NCBI GenBank assembly: GCA_947579665.1 | Contig: OX388347.1 | Span: forward strand, 40,370,943 to 40,434,942 | DNA from: Sympetrum striolatum | Lineage: Eukaryota; Arthropoda; Insecta; Odonata; Libellulidae | DNA: 64,000 bases | Reading direction: 5' to 3' | In this document: positions 2,796 to 57,539 of the stretch, in pieces | Position numbering within the stretch: the first letter of the stretch is position 1 | Layout: every line of letters starts with the position of its first letter | Program-made: the position numbers and the translations under genes | The notes under the pieces: model-generated | The model's database searches: none | What the model was told of the DNA's origin: nothing | The model's input: the letters and a program-made list of their open reading frames with translations, nothing else

Positions 2796-4644
2796 ATTAC
2801 AATTATATCATACCAATAAAAATATAAAAATAAGATTTTATGCGAACACTTGGAAGAGGACCCAAAAGCGTTTTGGTCGTACGTTCGTGAGGTCCAAGGT
2901 AAAGAGCAAACTGTTGGTTCATTAAAGGATACTAGCGGTAATATAGTAAATGATGCTAAAGGCAAAGCTTAATATCTTGAATGATTTTTTTCGAAGCGTT
3001 TTCACGTCTGACGATACGTCAAATACTCTCCCGAATGTTGATAAACCTGAATCGATGTCGAAAATCACCTTCAGAGAAGACGGCATCATTAAACTATTGC
3101 AACAGATTAAACCGAATAAAGCTCCGGGTCCTGAAGACATACCGGCTCAGGTGTTCAAGGAAGTTGCGGAGAGCGTAGCACCTTTTCTTAAAGTTATATT
3201 TGATAAGAGTATGAGCGAAGGAAAGGTCCCGAAGGATTGGAAAATTACAAATGTCACACCAATATTTAAAAGCGGCTCTAAGGACGATCCAGCTAATTAC
3301 AGACCTATATCATTAACATCACTGAGCGGTAAAATTATGGATCATATAATAGCTACCTCTTTAATGTGTTTTCTTGAAACGTCTAATTTCATAATTAGGA
3401 ATCAACACGGTTTTTGTAAGACTCGTTCTTGCGAGTCTCAGCTGGCTTTATTAGTACACAATGTTCTAAACTCTGCTGAAAAAAATAAGCAAGTCGATGC
3501 GATATTTTTAGATTTTCGGAAGGCTTTCGATAAGGTACCTCATCATAAATTGCTGTACAAATTAGAAGTTGCGGGTATCAATGCAGAAGTTATTAACTGG
3601 ATAAAAGACTTTCTCACCGATAGAGAGCAGCGAGTTGTACTCGATGGTATTAGTTCCAACTTGGTTAAGGTGACCTCGGGCGTCCCTCAGGGCAGTGTAA
3701 TTGGACCGTTGTTATTTTTAATATATATCAACAACCTCAGCAATCACATTGAAAGCAATGTTAGGATATTCGCAGACGACACAGTCATTTACGGGGAAAT
3801 AGTTAGTTCAGAGGATAGATTAACCCTTTCGAACGACTTAGATAGAATTATGAACTGGTGCGATGATTGGCAATTAGAGCTTAATTTGGAAAAGTGTTTG
3901 GTTAACTTCTTAAGTTAACTTCTTCGAAAGTAAATCTATAATAAATGATTATTCTTATCGTCTCCGAGGGGTAAACCTAATGACAGTAGAATCGGTAAAG
4001 TATCTTGGAGTAACTCTCACGAATAATCTATCATGGAGTGCCCACATCCGAAATAAATGTGGAAAAGCACTTAAGAAACTCGGTTTCGTAAAAAGAATAG
4101 TCGGTAGGAGCGAAGAAAAAGTTCGCGAGCGATATTACTTAGCGTTAGTTAGGCCTCACCTTGAGTATGCATGTAGTGTATGGGACCCCGCTGAGAAATG
4201 TCATATTCGGGATTTAGAAAACGTACAACGAAAGGCGATACGATTTGTAAAGAATTGCTACGATAAAACAGCAAGTGTCACTCAGATGTTACAGGACGCG
4301 GGATGGGAATCATTAGAAGATAGAAAAAAATTCAAAGGATAAATTTATTAAATAAGTTCAGAGAAATTACGTTTTCAGATGATGTAACCGATATAATGCG
4401 ACCCCTCTTTTATATGGGCCGTTCTGATACTGCCAGAAAGATTAGGGAAATAGATGCTAGAACGAATCGCTTCAAAAATTTATTTTTCCGCGAAGTATAC
4501 GCGAAAGCAACCGTTTAGGAAAATAGAGTCAAGGTGCCTGCACCCCCTGCCACACGCCGAAAGGCGGCTTGCAGGGTTCTTACATAGACATAGACAATTA
4601 TATTTATATTTATATAGACATTACAATTATATCATACCAATAAA
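2796..4644 (+). mobile_element. 5'-truncated LINE (CR1/L2/Jockey-like) with 25-bp target-site duplication
   Basis: A non-LTR retrotransposon copy of about 1.8 kb (2,821-4,619) is bracketed by a perfect 25-bp direct repeat at 2,796-2,820 and 4,620-4,644 (starts ATTACAATTATATCAT, ends CCAATAAA). The bracketing fits target-primed insertion. The endonuclease half is missing: homology begins just before the reverse transcriptase with the motif DPKAFWSYVR (about 2,859-2,888), so the copy is 5'-truncated as is usual for LINEs. The reverse transcriptase and C-terminal tail follow in three frames. The 3' end is a short AT-rich tract with TAGACA and TATATT repeats rather than a clean poly(A), as in CR1/L2-type elements. 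Clade assignment is from motif style only. Confidence 0.9.
2823..4518 (+). pseudogene. LINE reverse transcriptase, broken by three frameshifts
   Basis: This is the C-terminal half of a LINE ORF2-type protein, which in an intact element copies RNA into DNA at the nicked target. In the central open frame (2,950-3,918) the order is NKAPGPEDIPAQ (residues 56-67), YRPISLTS (117-124), FLDFRKAFD with catalytic D188, the primer-grip region SGVPQGS (243-249) and FADD (274-277, second catalytic aspartates). The tail with YLGVTL and LENVQRKAIRF is at 3,980-4,336, and the last part (INLLNKFREITF onward) runs to a stop at 4,516-4,518. Frame breaks: an extra base near 2,970 joins the upstream frame (GNIVNDAKGKA); a 13-bp tandem duplication at 3,901-3,925 gives stops at 3,911 and 3,916; a shift beside the A7 run at 4,324-4,330. 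All three lie in otherwise well preserved protein sequence, so inactivation looks recent. The endonuclease domain is absent. Confidence 0.9.
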
Positions 4645-5270: not shown

Positions 5271-5542
5271 TTGGCAATACATTGCTTTCCTTATTTTCAC
5301 AAAAGCATGTTTCTTATAATTGCGCTACATTACTTTAAGAACGTTTAAAGAGTGGTATCATAAATTGGGCACAAATAGCCAGTAGAATGTCGAACAATGG
5401 ATGTACTATTGTTGTGAATTAGTTTAACATCAAATTTGCGCCACATTTTTCAAGTATGGAATCCAGGAATAGACGTTCAATTGACATTTCCAGAAAATAA
5501 AAAATGTATAAATGATGAACGCAAATCAAAACATTTAAATTT
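5271..5542. other. AT-rich non-coding, nothing seen
   Basis: No gene or clear repeat structure is visible by eye. Confidence 0.4.
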
Positions 5543-5723
5543 GAAATTGCAGCAATTTTTAAGGTTTGTTTAAGCCCCTCCATGACTGAATTCGGAGAGT
5601 GAGTAGTAGGGATAAAGTGAACCTACGTGTAACGAAAAATTTAACGCATGCAGAAAGTAGTAACAGACAAAATAACGTTAGCCGCTGGAATACCACCTGA
5701 AGATATAGGACAAACTAGTCAGT

Positions 5724-7429: not shown

Positions 7430-8346
7430 TACGAGTAAAAGTAGCTTGGATACTGCACGCTTATAAAAGGTATTTATAATCTTTGTTCACATGCCACGTT
7501 TTGAGTTTCAATGTTATCGGGCAGGGCTTAAACAAACCTTAAAAATTGCTGCAATTTCTAATTTTTGTAACCGCCTGATGTCGAACCCAGCACCTATTGG
7601 AATATGCAAATAGGCATAATAACTTGTTAAGACCTAATCTTAATTAATACAAAGTTTAAAGTAAATATCATACCGGGAAGGTCCTGAAATAAGACTACAT
7701 TATCCCCTATCTGAAATGCATCGGATATAACATATTAGCAGCTGTGAATGCATATTATGACTTGTTAGGACTTGATCTTATTTAATGCAAAGTTTCAACT
7801 CGATATCATGTCTGGAAGTACCTAATATTTGTTTCCGTTATCTCCATAAAAAATGCATTGAGGAATGTAAATTTCCCTCTGGGATCGAACCAAGGACAAT
7901 CAGCGAATTGCTAAAATTAGATTATGAAATATATTTATGATCTCTATCCAAGTGCTGAGTTTCAAGTTTCCATCTTATCGGAAAGTGATAATAAAAAATC
8001 TTAAAAACCGCAATGTAAATTAAACGGGAGCATATTTTCCCCGACCTAGCATCGAACCATGGACAATATTCGAAAACGTCTTTTTGATGTTCGTCGGATA
8101 CGCATGGCTTCCAGCGATCCCTTGAATTTCAACTCTCTACTTTGCATGAAAGTGCCTCAAAAAATTTTTCGAAAATCCCCACCATGTATCTTTATGGAGA
8201 AAATCGGGACTTTGCGGCCTTCTGGAATCGAACCCATGACACCGAGGTTCAAAGTCAGTTTTTTTCTGGAGGTTACACGTCATGGCCAACACGTAAAAAT
8301 TTCAAGACAGTGGCATTTGTGGAACATGGTTAGAATTTTGATCCCC
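7430..8346 (+). repeat. B-box-unit element, copy 1 (internally deleted)
   Basis: It begins with the terminus TACGAGTAAAA (7,430) and ends with GATCCCC (8,340-8,346), the same two ends seen in the isolated copy at 24,993-26,068. Inside are units with the box TCGAACC-N-NGG at 7,581 (type F), 7,885 (type A), 8,052 (type B) and 8,228 (type C). On the minus strand each box reads GGTTCGA-NN-CC, the consensus of the internal B box of tRNA genes. Relative to copy 2 the front units (most of D, then E, B', C' and A') are missing, and a partial second F unit lies between F and A. Nothing is protein-coding. Unit names are mine, given by shared flanking sequence. Confidence 0.7.
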
Positions 8347-8353
8347 TACGAGG

Positions 8354-9690
8354 TACGAGTAAAATTTTGCTAGCATACTGCAAGCATATCGACAACACTA
8401 ATTTCATGTCGGCATCATATCGAGACGGTCCTCAATAGCCAAAAAAGGATTGGAAATATTCTTAAAATTCGCTGTAATTTAATTGCCTGGCATCGAACCC
8501 GGGTCTTTCTGGTCATACTTACTATGCAGCACAACAGAACATCACCATCTCTAACTATGTGTGAAAATTAAAGCAGAAATATTGGCTGCAACTGCCTCAA
8601 ACGACGTCCTACTTTTCACATATTTTCCTTATGTGAGAAATGTTAATGTGCTCTGGCATCGCACCTAGGAACAGCATGGTCTCATATAATTTTTTTCTTA
8701 AACACGAGTCTTAATATACATCTTTTAGCCAGGCACGAACTTCCTATCATTTCCATAAGTGCATCAAAAAAAATAATGAAAAACTACCAAAATGATTTTA
8801 AAGGGTAGATTTTTGCATCGTCCTAGCGTCGAACCAAGGACTTTTTCCGTAAAAGTCATTTATGTTTTCGATAGATGATGACCATATATATAAGCTCCTT
8901 GAGTTTTGATTCTCTTCCTATTAAGGAAGTAATTTTAAAAAATTCCCGAAAATCAAAGCAATACATTTAAAGGGGAAAAATCGGGACTTTGGGGCCCTCT
9001 GGAATCGAACCCATGACACTGAGGTTCAAAATTGCAATTTTTTGTTGGTTACACGTTATGGCCAAAATGTCGTAAAAATTTCAAGTCAATGACGCTGGTA
9101 TATCATAACAGGAAGGTCCTGATATAACTCCATTATCCCCATCTGAAATGCATACGAAATGTAAATGGCTCTCTGAGATCGAACCAAGGACGATCAAGAT
9201 ATCCTAAAACTGAGTATTTGAAACATATCAACGATCTTTATCTATATGCCGAATTTCAAGTTTCTATATTATTGGGAAGGGGTTCAAAAATATTCTTAAA
9301 AATCGGATCACCTTCTGATTTTAGAGACGGCTGGAGTCGAACCAAGGCCATATTGGCATCTGTGAATGCACAGTATGACTTGTTCTGACTTGATCTTATT
9401 TTATGCAAAGTTTGAAGTCAATATCATGCCGAAAAGTGACTAAAATTGGCATCTGTCAACTCCATAAAAAATGCATTGAGGAATGTAAATGCCTCACTGG
9501 GATCGAACCAAGGGCCATCAGCGAAAAGGTGAACAGCGTACATAAAATTTATAATTGATCTATATCTGCATGCCGAGTTTCAAGTTTCTATCTTATCGGG
9601 AAGTGATTTAAAAAAATCTTAAAAATTGCAATGTAAATTAAACGGGAGAATATTTACCCTGACCTAGCGTCGAACCAAGGATAATCATCG
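8354..9690 (+). repeat. B-box-unit element, copy 2 (longest, 3'-truncated)
   Basis: It starts with TACGAGTAAAA at 8,354, directly after copy 1 (junction GATCCCC-TACGAGG-TACGAGTAAAA). The boxes lie at 8,493 (D), 8,659 (E, degenerate TCGCACC), 8,829 (B'), 9,005 (C'), 9,179 (A'), 9,337 (F), 9,503 (A) and 9,670 (B). The spacings are 166, 170, 176, 174, 158, 166 and 167 bp. Homology to copy 1 stops shortly after the last B box, and the final C unit and the GATCCCC end are missing. A GC-rich repeat follows about 130 bp later. The near-constant spacing shows an element made of serially duplicated units of about 170 bp that have since diverged into recognisable types. Confidence 0.75.
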
Positions 9691-9823
9691 ATGACTGTTT
9701 AATGGTTTTAATACATCAGCGCCCTCGTGGAAAGCCCGAGATGTGTTCTATCAGTTCAAAGCGTATCTCTTCGAACAACTTGTCAGCATATTTTCGACTG
9801 TGGGACTTTGTATTAAATCCAAG

Positions 9824-9959
9824 CCACGCCGCGCCGCCGCCGATAAAATTTCCGGCGGCGGCGCGGCGGCGCGCCGTAGTTATTTTTTCGGCGGCGGCGG
9901 CGTGCCCGATATTGTCGGCGGCTGGCGTAATCGGCGCGGCGCCCATCTCTAGTGCCCAG
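9824..9959 (-). repeat. GC-rich GGCGGC dispersed repeat, copy 2
   Basis: A block of GCC/GGC runs ending GGCGCCCATCTCTAGTGCCC. It is the reverse orientation of the block at 2,590-2,734, which begins with the matching head (GTAGACATGGGCGCCG). The CpG density is extreme for this window. It is probably a non-autonomous mobile repeat; the superfamily is not recognised. Confidence 0.6.
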
Positions 9960-24992: not shown

Positions 24993-26068
24993 GGGGATCA
25001 AAATTCTAACCATGTTCCACAAGTGCCACTGACTTGAAATTTTTACGACGTATTGGCCATACCGAGTAACCTCCAGAAAAAATCCGACTTTGAACCTCGG
25101 TGTCATGGGTTCGAGTCCAGAAGGCCCCAAAATCGCGATTTTCTCCATAAGGATACATGACGGGGATTTTCGAAAATTTTTTGAGGCACTTCCCGGAAAA
25201 GGAGAGAGTTGAAATTCAAGGGACCGCTAGAAGCCGTGCATATGCTACGATACTCAAAAAGACATCTTCGAATATTGTCCATGGTTCGATGCTAGGTCGG
25301 GGCAAATATCGGCCGTTTAAAATGCATTGTGGCGATATTTAAGATTTTTTTGCACCCTTTCCTGATGTCATGGAAACTTGAAATTCGGCTTGAGGTTATA
25401 GATTATAAATGAATTTCATAATCAAATTTTACATGTTCGCTGATGGTCCTTGGTTCGATCCCAGAGAGCCATTTACATTCCTCAATGCATTTCTTATGGA
25501 GATGATGGAAAAAATTTAGGTACTTCCCGGCATGATATCGACTTCAAAATTTGCATGAAATAAGATCAAGTCCTTAAAAATCAAACTTAGCATTCACAGC
25601 TACCAATGTGTCCTGGGTTCGACACCAGGTGTCTCTACAATCAGCACCTGATCCGATTTTTAAGAATTATTTTGAGCTTATTCCCAATAATATAGAAACT
25701 TGAAATACGGCACGTAGATAGAGATCATAGATATATTTCAATAACATGTTTTAGATCTCCAAGATCGTCCTTGGTTCGAATCCAGAGAGCCATTTACATT
25801 CATGAAAAGTAGAACGTCGTATGAGGCAGTTGCAGCATATATTTCTTCTTGAAATTTCACACATAGTTTGAGATGGTGATCTTCTATTGTGCTGCATAGT
25901 AAGTTTACCAGTAAGACCCGGGTTCGATGCCAGACGATGAAATTGCAGCGAATTTTAAGAATATTTTCAATCCTTTTTTTTTTCTTCTGAGGACCGTCCC
26001 TATATGATGCCGATATGAAATTAGTATTGCCGATCTGCTTGCAGTATGCAAGCTACATTTTACTCGTA
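24993..26068 (-). repeat. B-box-unit element, copy 3 (both ends present)
   Basis: Inverted relative to copies 1 and 2. It starts GGGGATCAAAATTCT (24,993; complement of copy 1's AGAATTTTGATCCCC) and ends TTTTACTCGTA (26,058-26,068; complement of TACGAGTAAAA). GGTTCGA boxes have their TTCGA at 25,110 (C), 25,285 (B), 25,454 (A), 25,618 (F), 25,775 (A') and 25,923 (D), spaced 175, 169, 164, 157 and 148 bp. In element orientation the order is D-A'-F-A-B-C, that is copy 2's order with exactly E, B' and C' removed. At 1,076 bp with both termini it defines the family's ends. No target-site duplication is obvious. No protein-coding content. Confidence 0.75.
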
Positions 26069-29110: not shown

Positions 29111-29964
29111 TTACTGTTACTAAGTGAAAAATATCCCGTTAAAGATGAAATGAAATCCTGGATGACACCGACGTCGAAAACCACTTCCTAGTGCCTCGGA
29201 AACGTCGCCTGCGATTAAAGGAATTAAACCACGACGTATGAGCTTTTCCATTTTTTGAAAGGAAAAATATAAAAGAACGGGCACCTCACGGTCGGCACAA
29301 AGGAAGGAATTCGCGCGGGATAGGAAGTCCATTAATTATCTTCCCACCCAAACTCACCTCCGGCCCTGTTTATCATTTTCTTTTTGTGGGAGCGAAAAGT
29401 AATGAGTCATTACTGCGTCTTCCTCCGGTCTAACCCACGGCTGGGATGATTAATCAAACAAGAAAAGAAGAGAGAATCCTCGCGCAACCGGATAAAAAAA
29501 TATATTAGATTATCAGCAAGAGAATGGAAAAGAATGGGCGTTCGGGGTTAGAGGTTAGGGCAAGCAGAGGCGAGGGAAGGAAGGGACGGGGTCGCGGGGA
29601 CAGAGGCGTAGCTACATTTCGAGGCGACAAAGGACGGGACGAGGTTGCAGGGTGAGAAAAAATTAGAAAGATGCGGCCTTAAAAACTAAGGGAAACGCGA
29701 ACGGAAGAAAAGCTAGGGAAAAAATTCTCGTGTCTTTTTCTTTTCCTTCCAGTCCCTGTCAACTGCCATCCGAATAAATAGAACAACATTTTCTGAGGCC
29801 CGGTGCGGTGGGGGAAGTGAACAGTCAGAGAGGAACAGAAATACAGAGGACGAGATAGGGTGTCAGGGAGACGTGGGGGAAGGGTCAAGAGTGGAATGAC
29901 GGAGGAGAGAGACAGAAATGTGGTGTGAAGAGAGATATGGAGGTGAAAGTGGATGGGATAGAGG
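29111..29964. promoter_or_regulatory. CpG-containing island (to ~29,510) followed by long purine tract
   Basis: About 29,111-29,510 has raised CpG density (CACCGACGTCGAAAACCACT; AATTCGCGCGGGATAGGAAG). About 29,520-29,960 is almost continuously purine-rich on + (AGGCGAGGGAAGGAAGGGAC; GAGGAGAGAGACAGAAATGT). This pairing recurs elsewhere in the window. The regulatory role is inference. Confidence 0.3.
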
Positions 29965-29965
29965 T

Positions 29966-30235
29966 TCTCTGTAAAGTATACAGCCCGAAGGCTGGTCCCT
30001 TACCCCCTCTCAAACATTTGCTACAAAGAGCTAGTAGGGGGAATGAGGCTTACTAGGCAAGATGAGGAGTGAGACAGTTTGTCCTCGCCCTCCCACCACG
30101 GCAGAATGTTATAAGCAGAAAATGTCCACGTTAGTGAAGCATAACTACTCCAAGAATAACGTTTTTCCATAAGGAGAGGCCTTAGTTAGTGCCAATGTTT
30201 TATCACGCATGAAGAAGACAGTGATAAAGTAATAA
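29966..30235 (+). repeat. Dispersed repeat, sister of the one at 33.3-33.6 kb
   Basis: It aligns with the reverse complement of about 33,300-33,570. Shared blocks in the same order are CTGTAAAG, CAGCC.GAAGGC.GGT, ACCCCCTC, AGAGCT, GGAATGAGG, TATAAGC.GAAAAT.TCCACG and AACGTTTTTCC or its counterpart. The hammerhead-like motif found upstream of the sister copy is missing here, as if 5'-truncated. No coding frame is preserved. Probably a non-autonomous retroelement. Confidence 0.6.
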
Positions 30236-31469: not shown

Positions 31470-32041
31470 CAGGGTGTCCGGGTTATACGTATAATAATAC
31501 AAAATGTAATAACTTGAGAAGCAATTGAGATATTTATTAGGGGTTTGTTTCTACAAGTTTGGTAACTCAAAATGTTCTTAAAAACTGTTGATACACCACC
31601 ATATGTGTATCATTAGTGACAGAAAGACATATCATCTGTATTTTACTCTCTCCAAGTGTTTTGCAGTATTGCAGGCATAACATTCGCAATAACTGCAGGA
31701 ATTCGATTGCGTAGTACGAACTGGTGTCTGGTACACTTGATTCTTGATAAACTCCCACAGCAAAATATCAAGTGGCCTCACGTCTGGATTTCTAGGGAGC
31801 CAAGCAATCGATGGACTACCTCTCCAAATCAAGCGATCTAGGAATTCATTATCCAAGATAATCCAAGAAATCCTTTACAATTAGATGCATACTGCATAAT
31901 GGCAGGGTGCGCATCATCATCAAGCAAAATTAGAAAACATTTTGAGTTACCAAACTAGTAGAAGAAAACAGCTGATATGTATCTCAATTACTTCTCAAGT
32001 TTTTAAATTTTGTATTATTATATCTTTTACCCGGACACCCG
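31470..32041 (-). mobile_element. Tc1/mariner-type DNA transposon remnant with TA duplication
   Basis: The 572-bp element starts CAGGGTGTCCGGGT and ends with its complement ACCCGGACACCCG. It is flanked by TA on both sides (31,468-31,469 and 32,042-32,043), the target-site duplication of the Tc1/mariner superfamily. The inverted ends are long: similarity continues about 60 bp inward (ATAATAATACAAAAT, ACTTGAGAAG.AATTGAGATA), and a second shared block, GTTTGGTAACTCAAAATGTT, lies about 90-105 bp from each end. A transposase scrap lies between on the minus strand. The element is far shorter than an intact mariner-like copy, so it is an internal-deletion derivative. Confidence 0.85.
31632..31856 (-). 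pseudogene. Transposase fragment (Tc1/mariner DDE superfamily)
   Basis: The translated minus strand includes FLDRLIWRGSPSIAWLPRNP followed by DVRPLDILLWEFIKNQVYQT. This corresponds to the WPPRSPDLTPLDFFLWGxxK stretch of insect Tc1/mariner-type transposases, around the last part of the catalytic core. Both the N-terminal DNA-binding region and the earlier catalytic aspartates are missing, and the downstream part is out of frame or eroded. It sits inside the TA-flanked inverted repeats at 31,470-32,041, which supports the assignment. It is non-functional; an intact copy elsewhere would be needed to move this element. Confidence 0.75.
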
Positions 32042-33289: not shown

Positions 33290-33570
33290 TGATCATGGCT
33301 ATGACGAAATGAAAGCCACCGAGGTATGAGTGAATAATTGCACCAATCAAGGTCCCTCCTAACGGAATGCCAAGGAAAGTGTTACTCATAGAGTCATTGT
33401 GCTTTACTTGCGTGGATATTTTCCGCTTATAGCATTCCGATTCAGTGAGGAAATAAAGTGCAAACTACCTCATCCTGTCTAATGAACCTCATTCCTCTCT
33501 GTAAGCTCTTAGTAGCTTATGTAAGAGGGGGTGACGTAAAAACCGGCCTTCAGGCTGAATTCTTTACAGA
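33290..33570 (-). repeat. Dispersed repeat downstream of hammerhead-like motif
   Basis: On the minus strand this runs CTGTAAAGAATTCAGCCTGA and onward (CACCCCCTC, GGAATGAGG, TATAAGCGGAAAATATCCACG). It is the counterpart of 29,966-30,235. It directly follows the hammerhead-like core at 33,588-33,620 in the same orientation, so the two may form one element. The minus-strand frame 33,186-33,389 partly overlaps it and shows no recognisable domain. Confidence 0.6.
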
Positions 33571-33587
33571 CAACGTTTATCGTAAGC

Positions 33588-45680: not shown

Positions 45681-45764
45681 AGTGAAATATTGATAGTAAA
45701 ATATCAATAGTGAAATATCGATAGTGAAATATTGATAGCGAAATATCGGTAGTGAAATATTGAC
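45681..45764 (+). repeat. 14-bp minisatellite, six copies
   Basis: Six consecutive units of AGTGAAATATTGAT with substitutions (AGTAAAATATCAAT, AGTGAAATATCGAT, AGCGAAATATCGGT and others). Related but spaced motifs (GTGAAATATTGATAGCGATG; GTGAAATTTCGATTATGAAA) continue at about 46,055-46,270, suggesting an older, larger array interrupted by other sequence. Confidence 0.9.
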
Positions 45765-45969
45765 GGAAAATAATAATCATTATAGAAAATTTCGTTAGCG
45801 TATTTCAATTATACTTCTAAATAAGGTCAAAAAAGCCTATATCTAGATTGAAAGAGCAGCTTGTTCATATTATAACTACAAAAAACTTTATTAATTAGAT
45901 AGATAGCTGAAACGGCCTAAAAGCTGACATAGGAGCATTTGACATTGAGTGGGTCGAAGTTAAAATCAT

Positions 45970-45983
45970 ATGTATGTATGTAT

Positions 45984-46021
<38 letters not shown>

Positions 46022-46022
46022 G
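45970..46022 (+). repeat. Compound microsatellite (TATG)n-(CA)n-(TA)n
   Basis: TATGTATGTATG, then about 12 CA units, then about 8 TA units, ending near 46,022. Confidence 0.9.
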
Positions 46023-46259
46023 CATGAATTAGAAACTTCCTACAGGAGGATATATTGATTGTGAAATATTGATAGCGATGTACGTTAATGGTAGATAAAA
46101 TTCAATAGTGAAATATCAATTCTGAAATATCGATAATGAGATACCAATATTGAGAATACAGAGAATTTAAATAAAATTATAAAACTTCGGTAATGAAATT
46201 TTGATAGAGAATTTTCCATTATGATGTATCGATTGTGAAATTTCGATTATGAAATATTG

Positions 46260-56686: not shown

Positions 56687-57539
56687 TGTATGTGTGTGTG
56701 TGTTAGTGGGCGCTCTAACGTAAAAACTATTGGTCGTATCAATACCAAACTTCATATATAGTACTGTGGTGTGTGCTGTCAGAGTCGATTAGTTTTTGAA
56801 GTAAATCGGTTAACCGGAAGTCGAGCTTCATTCATCAAAGCTCATTTCCGGTTTTCAATATATCTCCCTAAATATGATATATACGTATGTTGTATTAATT
56901 ATAAAAGTTTTAGATAATATAATTTTCTATAACTTTTGTATTTAACATATTTTTGTATCACCGGTTGATTAGGAGTTATTCGTGAGATACCGATAAACCG
57001 GAAGTAGCTGTTATGTACTTTGTGGGCGCTCTATCATGAAAACTGTTTGTTGTATCAACACCAAATTTCATATATTGTACTTTGCTTTATGTATTTAGAG
57101 TTGATTAGTTTTTGGAGTAAATCGGTAGACCGGATGTCGAGCTTCACTCTTCAAAGCTCATTTCCGGTTTTCAAAATATCTCCATAAATATGATATTTAA
57201 GTATATACTATTATTTATAAAAGTTTTAGAAAATAAAATTTACGATAACTTTTGTTTGAAACATATTTTTGTATCACTGATTGTTTAGGAGTTATTCATG
57301 AAATACTGATAAACCGGAAGTTGCTGATTATGTACTTCGTGGGCGCTCTGGGCTCAATGGGCGAATGACCAATTTCATCGCTTTTCATCGATCATGTCCC
57401 GAAAAACATTATTTATAATGTTTTTGACGTCAAAGATAATAATATATAATTTAATCACTTATCTTCCAAGTTTAGATGGAATATAGAGTTCGAAATTACT
57501 GTCGTAGATAAATATTTACATCTTATACATGGAGAAAGT
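56523..57539. mobile_element. Repeat element with inverted ends, TG microsatellite and 316-bp tandem units
   Basis: Bounded by ACTTTCTCCATATA (56,523-56,536) and its near complement TACATGGAGAAAGT (57,526-57,539). Inside lie a (TG)n microsatellite (56,647-56,703) and two tandem units starting at GTGGGCGCTCT at 56,706 and 57,022, with a third start at 57,339 (periods 316 and 317 bp). Each unit contains an internal stem (CCGGAAGTCGAGCTT ... AAGCTCATTTCCGG). There is no transposase. The assembly is probably a non-autonomous transposon family carrying internal repeats. Confidence 0.6.
56647..56703 (+). repeat. (TG)n microsatellite
   Basis: A TG run with interruptions (GTCTGTATG). It is responsible for the Cys-Val-Cys-Val stretch in the overlapping frame, which is therefore not a gene. 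Confidence 0.95.

Follow-up and report, generated by a model that had tools for sequence, protein, structure and literature searches.

In the 64,000-nucleotide stretch of Sympetrum striolatum DNA analyzed here (the window), a short motif resembling the B box of tRNA genes recurs at a spacing of roughly 170 bp in two stretches, which we call E1 and E2. What kind of repeat is this, and what has preserved the motif in it? The boxes themselves are plain: GGTTCGANNCC occurs 11 times in the window where 0.17 would be expected, six times in E1, five times in E2, and nowhere else. Chance is excluded as their source because none of 100 shuffles reached 11 occurrences. Outside the elements, GGTTCGA is found once in 60.5 kb. 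E1 carries 11 exact boxes, read as TCGAACC on the plus strand, and a box damaged to TCGCACC, which completes the twelve that the initial annotation had counted between 7,581 and 9,670. The form TCGAACC-NN-GG that it gave for all of them is present in 8 of the 11 exact E1 boxes, and the minus-strand form GGTTCGA-NN-CC in 6; the rest depart from it. Successive E1 boxes lie 158–176 bp apart in 9 of 11 intervals, in agreement with its description of most spacings, the exceptions being 265 and 304 bp, and the six GGTTCGA boxes of E2 follow one another at 175, 169, 164, 157, and 148 bp.

We built a profile from 18 aligned box regions, 17 of them picked for the heptamer and one for the damaged box; the latter row (8659) sits five bases off in the profile, although MAFFT nonetheless aligned it. 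A search with this profile returned 19 units over the inclusion threshold, all within E1 and E2 and nothing else in the window, a result that holds by construction for the E1 and E2 units, because the profile was built from 18 of them; its weight lies in the absence of matches elsewhere in the window. One unit has the damaged box, and one partial unit has no box. All-against-all scores separated the units into types 1, 2, 3 with 5, 4, 6, and a lone 7, some of which match one another no better than expected by chance. Read in the sense direction from 9694 to 7430, E1 runs 2-3-4-5-1-2-7-6-end and then start-1-2-3-4-4′-part of 5-end; E2 runs 1-2-3-4-5-6 (Table 1). The unit types proposed earlier are therefore real by these scores. 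Their order, which had been taken as fixed, recurs but is only partly so: in E1, it jumps from 5 to 1, and units have been lost. The proposed serially amplified monomer is likewise supported, as a diverged unit of ∼167 bp. A further 41-bp segment at 5537–5577 is 97.6% identical, in inverted orientation, to 7524–7564 in E1 and contains no box; by its likeness, it is an isolated fragment of the type-4 unit region.

Table 1. Features of E1 and E2. Unit rows rest on the profile and the all-against-all scores unless stated otherwise. E1 boxes are given by the position of TCGAACC on the plus strand and E2 boxes as ranges that begin with GGTTCGA.
Feature	Position	Strand	Remarks
E1	7430..9694	-	5′-truncated head-to-tail pair; sense strand of GGTTCGA is minus; 11 exact boxes and 1 damaged
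E1, unit type 2	9609..9766	-	Box 9670; profile match, pairwise homology stops at ∼9694
E1, unit type 3	9459..9614	-	Box 9503
E1, unit type 4	9285..9445	-	Box 9337
E1, unit type 5 (related to type 3)	9122..9290	-	Box 9179
E1, unit type 1	8936..9121	-	Box 9005
E1, unit type 2 (diverged)	8769..8938	-	Box 8829
E1, unit type 7	8626..8770	-	Damaged box TCGCACC 8659
E1, unit type 6	8453..8601	-	Box 8493
First E1 copy, 3′ end TTTTACTCGTA	8354..8364	-	
Second E1 copy, 5′ start GGGGATCAAAATTCTAACCATG	8325..8346	-	Common with E2
E1, unit type 1	8158..8335	-	Box 8228
E1, unit type 2	7992..8163	-	Box 8052
E1, unit type 3	7825..7990	-	Box 7885
E1, partial unit type 4	7738..7825	-	No box
E1, unit type 4 (diverged)	7529..7690	-	Box 7581
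Second E1 copy, 3′ end TTTTACTCGTA	7430..7440	-	
E2	24993..26068	+	Single element copy, 1076 bp, six boxes, unit order 1-2-3-4-5-6
E2, 5′ start GGGGATCAAAATTCTAACCATG	24993..25014	+	Common with second E1 copy
E2, unit type 1	25004..25184	+	Box 25108-25118
E2, unit type 2	25178..25352	+	Box 25283-25293 (GGTTCGATGCT)
E2, unit type 3	25348..25518	+	Box 25452-25462
E2, unit type 4	25515..25674	+	Box 25616-25626
E2, unit type 5	25670..25805	+	Box 25773-25783
E2, unit type 6	25821..25969	+	Box 25921-25931
Palindrome GCTTGCAGTATGCAAGC, 17 nt	26037-26053		Near E2 3′ end
E2, 3′ end TTTTACTCGTA	26058..26068	+	4 nt past palindrome GCTTGCAGTATGCAAGC

E1 and E2 contain copies of the same ∼1.08-kb element, and these copies have exact ends in common. 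The 22-mer GGGGATCAAAATTCTAACCATG at the 5′ start is matched just twice in the window when up to three mismatches are allowed (0.00 expected), and the exact matches of TTTTACTCGTA in the window are the three element ends and no others. All three copies end in ACTCGTA, and the GGGGATC start is preceded by TC-R-TA in both copies that have it (two copies only). The two E1 copies lie head to tail, with 7 bp (8347–8353) between the end of the first and the start of the second, and in pairwise comparison the homology of E1 to the other copies stops at ∼9694. E2 is flanked by ...CATTCATA on one side and TGATATAC... on the other. Unit-like sequence reaches to within ∼11 bp of the E2 start (E 2e-5). 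The second E1 copy has it in its final ∼105 bp (E 0.0007), and close to the two remaining ends the similarity is weak (E 0.017 and 0.17). Neither a terminal or subterminal inverted repeat common to the copies nor a target duplication could be demonstrated in E1 and E2. Among the 13 frames listed, no stop-to-stop frame of at least 120 aa falls in E1 or E2, and the reading as a coding repeat was rejected on this ground.

E1 and E2 thus look like a dispersed element with defined ends, and the earlier claim of mobility gains support, as a probability, from two dispersed loci with the same exact ends. A fragment of an ordinary satellite that recombination or extrachromosomal circles had scattered, with no selection on the box, would account for the satellite-like monomers, the tandem head-to-tail copy, and the unit jumps and losses. 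Such a fragment would not be expected to have the same start at two places and the same end at three, nor the constraint on the box described below, and we regard this origin as quite improbable.

The window contains other repeats and mobile sequences. A reverse transcriptase of a non-LTR retrotransposon with thousands of relatives lies at 2950–3918 (Pfam RVT_1, E 6e-36), and a second frame at 3914–4342 looks, by eye, like its continuation. Very GC-rich, self-complementary GCC/GGC repeats stand just past E1 at 9825–9904. Two inverted repeat pairs, 29957–30160 with 33381–33581 (71% alike) and 31472–31576 with 31936–32040 (86% alike), are possibly mobile elements. Arrays of 14-bp repeats (AGTGAAATATCGAT and others) occupy 45681–46255, and at 56706–57349 a 316-bp repeat is present twice in tandem (85% alike), directly after a TG microsatellite.

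To judge the constraint on the box, we compared it with the rest of the unit, a comparison on which the initial annotation had staked its reading; all conservation figures are drawn from two loci and about three partial copies. In four alignments of E1 against E2, for which boxes were picked in the E1 row only and no E1 stretch was reused (the E2 stretches overlap), the box was identical at 89 of 90 positions, whereas the 161 phases averaged 0.80 (sd 0.07), and no phase outside the box neighborhood (−10 to +14) equaled it. In the same alignments, the box CpG was kept in 10 of 10 cases compared with 37 of 51 for other CpGs. Seven same-type alignments, in which nine fixed core positions were scored and boxes were recognized in either row with one mismatch allowed, gave 134/136 identical positions in the box core and 1908/2403 outside; the Fisher p of 5e-11 is optimistic because sequences recur between the seven alignments. 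Nor did any other of the 158 nine-base phase windows score as high as the box (0.956, median 0.79). The box is thus the most conserved phase between same-type copies and also over the aligned units of all types, and the outcome that the initial annotation had named as refuting its reading did not arise. It had the highest information content over the 18 units (1.72 bits against a median of 0.67), a figure that is raised because 17 of the 18 rows were picked for the heptamer and in which the damaged-box row (8659) lies five bases off, as it does in the A-box and T-run counts below. Moreover, bases that played no part in the choice of rows are also kept: AG after the box in 18/18 units, C at −4 in 17/18, and G at −6 in 16/18. 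The conserved box extends to as much as 19 bp, roughly GTCCTTGGTTCGANNCCAG, and its position 9 is a purine in 9/18 units.

A second conserved block, CTTGAAA-like, lies ∼74 bp upstream of the box at near-fixed spacing (71–75 bp upstream in 12/18 units with a strict pattern). In the E1-vs-E2 alignments, it is the next most conserved phase (0.93 compared with 0.99 for the box) and, being nearly as conserved, it shows that the box is not the sole constrained part of the unit. Across 100 between-type pairs, which omit units 9670 and 8659 and the type 3-with-5 pairs, similarity is strongest in the box (z 48, inflated by row choice) and the upstream block (z 22) and weaker elsewhere (z 4 and 10). This between-type similarity fits common descent with two constrained blocks. 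A mobile composite with a maintained box is the probable description of E1 and E2.

GGTTCGA is the core of the tRNA T loop, and a B-box core is present in 17/18 units. The yeast consensus GWTCRANNC, as quoted in PMC4228148, is fitted by 15/18 units and the strict human consensus GGTTCRANYCY, as quoted in PMC7279448, by 8/18. A passage of PMC4228148 attributes the affinity of TFIIIC mainly to the B box and also places TFIIIC at sites without Pol III. The polymeric SINE relative suggested by the initial annotation, or a decayed chain of tRNA-like genes, would be transcribed by RNA polymerase III and would explain the B-box cores as well as the T runs of at least 5 within 80 nt after the box, found in 14/18 units (shuffles 10.6, sd 1.7; A runs 4/18). 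This T-run excess is a weak hint toward a Pol III reading, and the further tests went the other way. ARAGORN found no tRNA. Rfam gave no match at gathering score, and its ten weaker matches at E up to 10, all below the family gathering score, included no tRNA; a known Rfam RNA was rejected accordingly. The A-box search that had been called for covered 18–100 nt upstream of the box: TRGYNNARNNGG averaged 5.39 of 8 compared with 5.71 in shuffles, 198 of 200 being as good or better, and with two stricter patterns 200/200 and 130/200 shuffles were as good or better. The T stem showed no covariation, with positions 51-63 paired in 10/18 units, 50-64 in 16/18, and 49-65 in 7/18, about as in re-dealt letters; pairs 53-61 and 52-62 stay intact in 18/18 units, their letters being almost invariant. 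With no A box, tRNA, T-stem covariation, or gathering-score match found, the polymeric SINE or tRNA-gene chain was rejected; it is already largely refuted, and we give it next to no credence. Since the DNA is conserved and no tRNA, A box, or covariation was found with it, the motif was probably kept as DNA.

Which protein would then recognize it? Because conserved bases continue beyond the B box (AG in 18/18), the bound factor may be one other than TFIIIC, such as a transposase, a domesticated transposase, or a zinc-finger or architectural factor, the B-box likeness being coincidental. The extra conserved bases at −4 and −6 point in this direction, as do the fit of only 8/18 units to the human consensus, the second block at its near-fixed upstream distance, the A box and T-stem covariation that were not found, and the purine at position 9 in half of the units, a feature not expected of a plain B box. 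Against coincidence stand the 15/18 units that fit the yeast consensus, the identity of GGTTCGA with the T-loop core, and a survey of viral contigs, where a loose two-box pattern matched 99 stretches. The 16 of these that were scanned all hold tRNA genes (3 to 38 each), so the pattern is typical of tRNAs. Weighing both sides, we hold a different protein to be a serious contender, though at rather less than even chances.

With blastn, the best 20 matches listed between the 99 stretches and the element span 17–33 bp, and none looks like a further copy; the profile gave weak matches to the 99 stretches, the best at 19.2 bits (L078, about 100 bp). Strict box patterns had no match in viral contigs or genome contigs, which says little because one such pattern finds just 3 units in the window itself. 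A distant blastn search of E2 against phages gave no match.

We next consider whether the units could be the central satellite-like repeats of a non-autonomous Helentron of the HINE or pearl type, with the box playing no special role. As described in the cited portions of PMC7492417 and PMC4067079, Helentron central repeats measure 140–180 bp, pearl has up to six repeats of ∼160 bp, sometimes two arrays occur, and non-autonomous members carry subterminal inverted repeats (subTIRs) and a 3′ palindrome. In CvA, a 156-bp unit is repeated 2–6 times, with truncation of the first copy, by the account in PMC5874043, a study that, in the part cited, used tRNAscan-SE for A and B boxes. Oyster monomers of different clusters, in the section of PMC7492417 that treats them, have two conserved segments in common and are otherwise dissimilar; the words tRNA, TFIIIC, and polymerase III are absent from the main text of that paper. 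The six units and, perhaps, the 17-nt palindrome of E2 resemble this architecture, as do the two conserved blocks amid diverged units, and TC precedes the apparent start in both copies, as it would in Helitrons. Tandem spacing falls within 140–180 bp save for the E1 intervals of 265 and 304 bp. However, taking subTIRs of 11–15 bp as the criterion for HINE, DINE-1, and pearl, the best E2 candidate scored 12 (shuffle mean 13.5; 429/500 as good), and a match in the second E1 copy (score 18; 30/500 shuffles as good) does not recur in E2. An exact palindrome is present at only one of the three ends, that of E2, and the E1 ends fold poorly (shuffles as good at the 3′ end: 12/200 for E2, 14/200 for the first E1 copy, and 74/200 for the second). 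Because unit similarity comes to within ∼11 bp of the E2 start, a distinct 5′ flank module would hardly fit. A canonical Helitron 3′ end was rejected, CTRR being expected where all three copies have ACTCGTA. Finally, a box without a role is at odds with its clear constraint (89/90). We lean against this reading while keeping it in play, and Helentron membership is not claimed, because no common subTIR was found despite the matching unit length, unit number, and non-coding nature.

The explanation that we favor, at about even odds for the whole of it, is that E1 and E2 belong to a DNA-transposon-like element that is dispersed, non-coding, and non-autonomous. It measures ∼1.08 kb, its body consists of ∼167-bp satellite-type units, diverged and arranged as a short array, and the box would be maintained by a candidate binder. 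All units would descend from one ancestor, and the box would have been kept during multiplication of the element by sequence-specific binding of a protein to the DNA; unequal exchange and tandem duplication among units would have produced the type jumps and losses of E1. Given a mobile composite with a maintained box, TFIIIC as the binder has a chance appreciably below even. Of the factors that can be named, polymerase-free TFIIIC is the strongest candidate, though unproven, and another factor is about as likely. The action of TFIIIC would not involve RNA polymerase III, as is the case at extra-TFIIIC sites, and one site per nucleosome-sized unit could keep the array open or phased. In a bolder version, which we think unlikely, a transposon spreads ready-made higher-order arrays of candidate TFIIIC-only sites spaced at nucleosome pitch. 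It would be a portable element that bounds or phases chromatin, and its boxes would have been selected at each step of its spread.

Transposon-borne satellite-like arrays are already known, and in our judgment, the upkeep of likeness among their monomers is poorly understood. In the element described here, sequence beyond two short blocks has diverged until some types no longer align, and the box and its adjoining bases persist. If the box is bound, the element would provide a natural dispersed array in which to ask whether polymerase-free TFIIIC sites organize chromatin and also, a route to asking why mobile elements carry satellite arrays. Among the open-licence literature matches listed, no title or abstract opening named a B-box unit array in a transposon; we make no claim of absence from print.

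Several known systems resemble the element in part. Extra-TFIIIC (ETC) sites occur, as far as they are known, singly at host loci, whereas one repeat here contains up to 12 putative sites. The two are alike in the B-box core, which in the yeast form given in PMC4228148 is that found in 15/18 units, and no A box was found here. tRNA-derived SINEs also have the B-box core; the element differs from them in having many boxes per copy and neither a tRNA head nor the A box that would lie 30–40 bp upstream of the B box. Alpha satellite combines ∼170-bp monomers, a higher-order type order, and CENP-B boxes, and the likeness extends to monomer length, type order, and one short box per monomer, but the array here is short and dispersed. 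The CENP-B core motif is TTCGNNNNANNCGGG; at up to one mismatch, it has 8 matches in the window (7.4 expected) and none in E1 or E2, and a CENP-B-box satellite was rejected on this basis. Cassandra retroelements, which have a Pol III 5S origin, are similar as mobile repeats tied to Pol III signals and forming tandem arrays; they differ as plant LTR-type elements with a 5S rRNA promoter instead of B boxes in each unit. Cassandra in tandem arrays is the subject of PMC7215508.

By analogy, the closest known kind appears to be the non-autonomous Helentron with ∼160-bp central repeats (HINE, pearl, Cg_HINE). Insertion at T-rich TT and an autonomous Rep/helicase partner are features of HINE, DINE-1, and pearl elements. 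Unlike Helentrons, the element has no common subTIR that we could find and no separate flank module or microsatellite that we could recognize, and it carries one B-box-like motif per unit, with some unit types at chance-level mutual scores. Like DINE-1/HINE, pearl (CvA, CvE, MgE), and Cg_HINE, it is dispersed and non-coding and consists of a short array of 140–180-bp units, with conserved segments in its diverged monomers. It resembles pearl in unit number (up to six), and a further likeness may lie in the 3′ palindrome, exact in E2 only.
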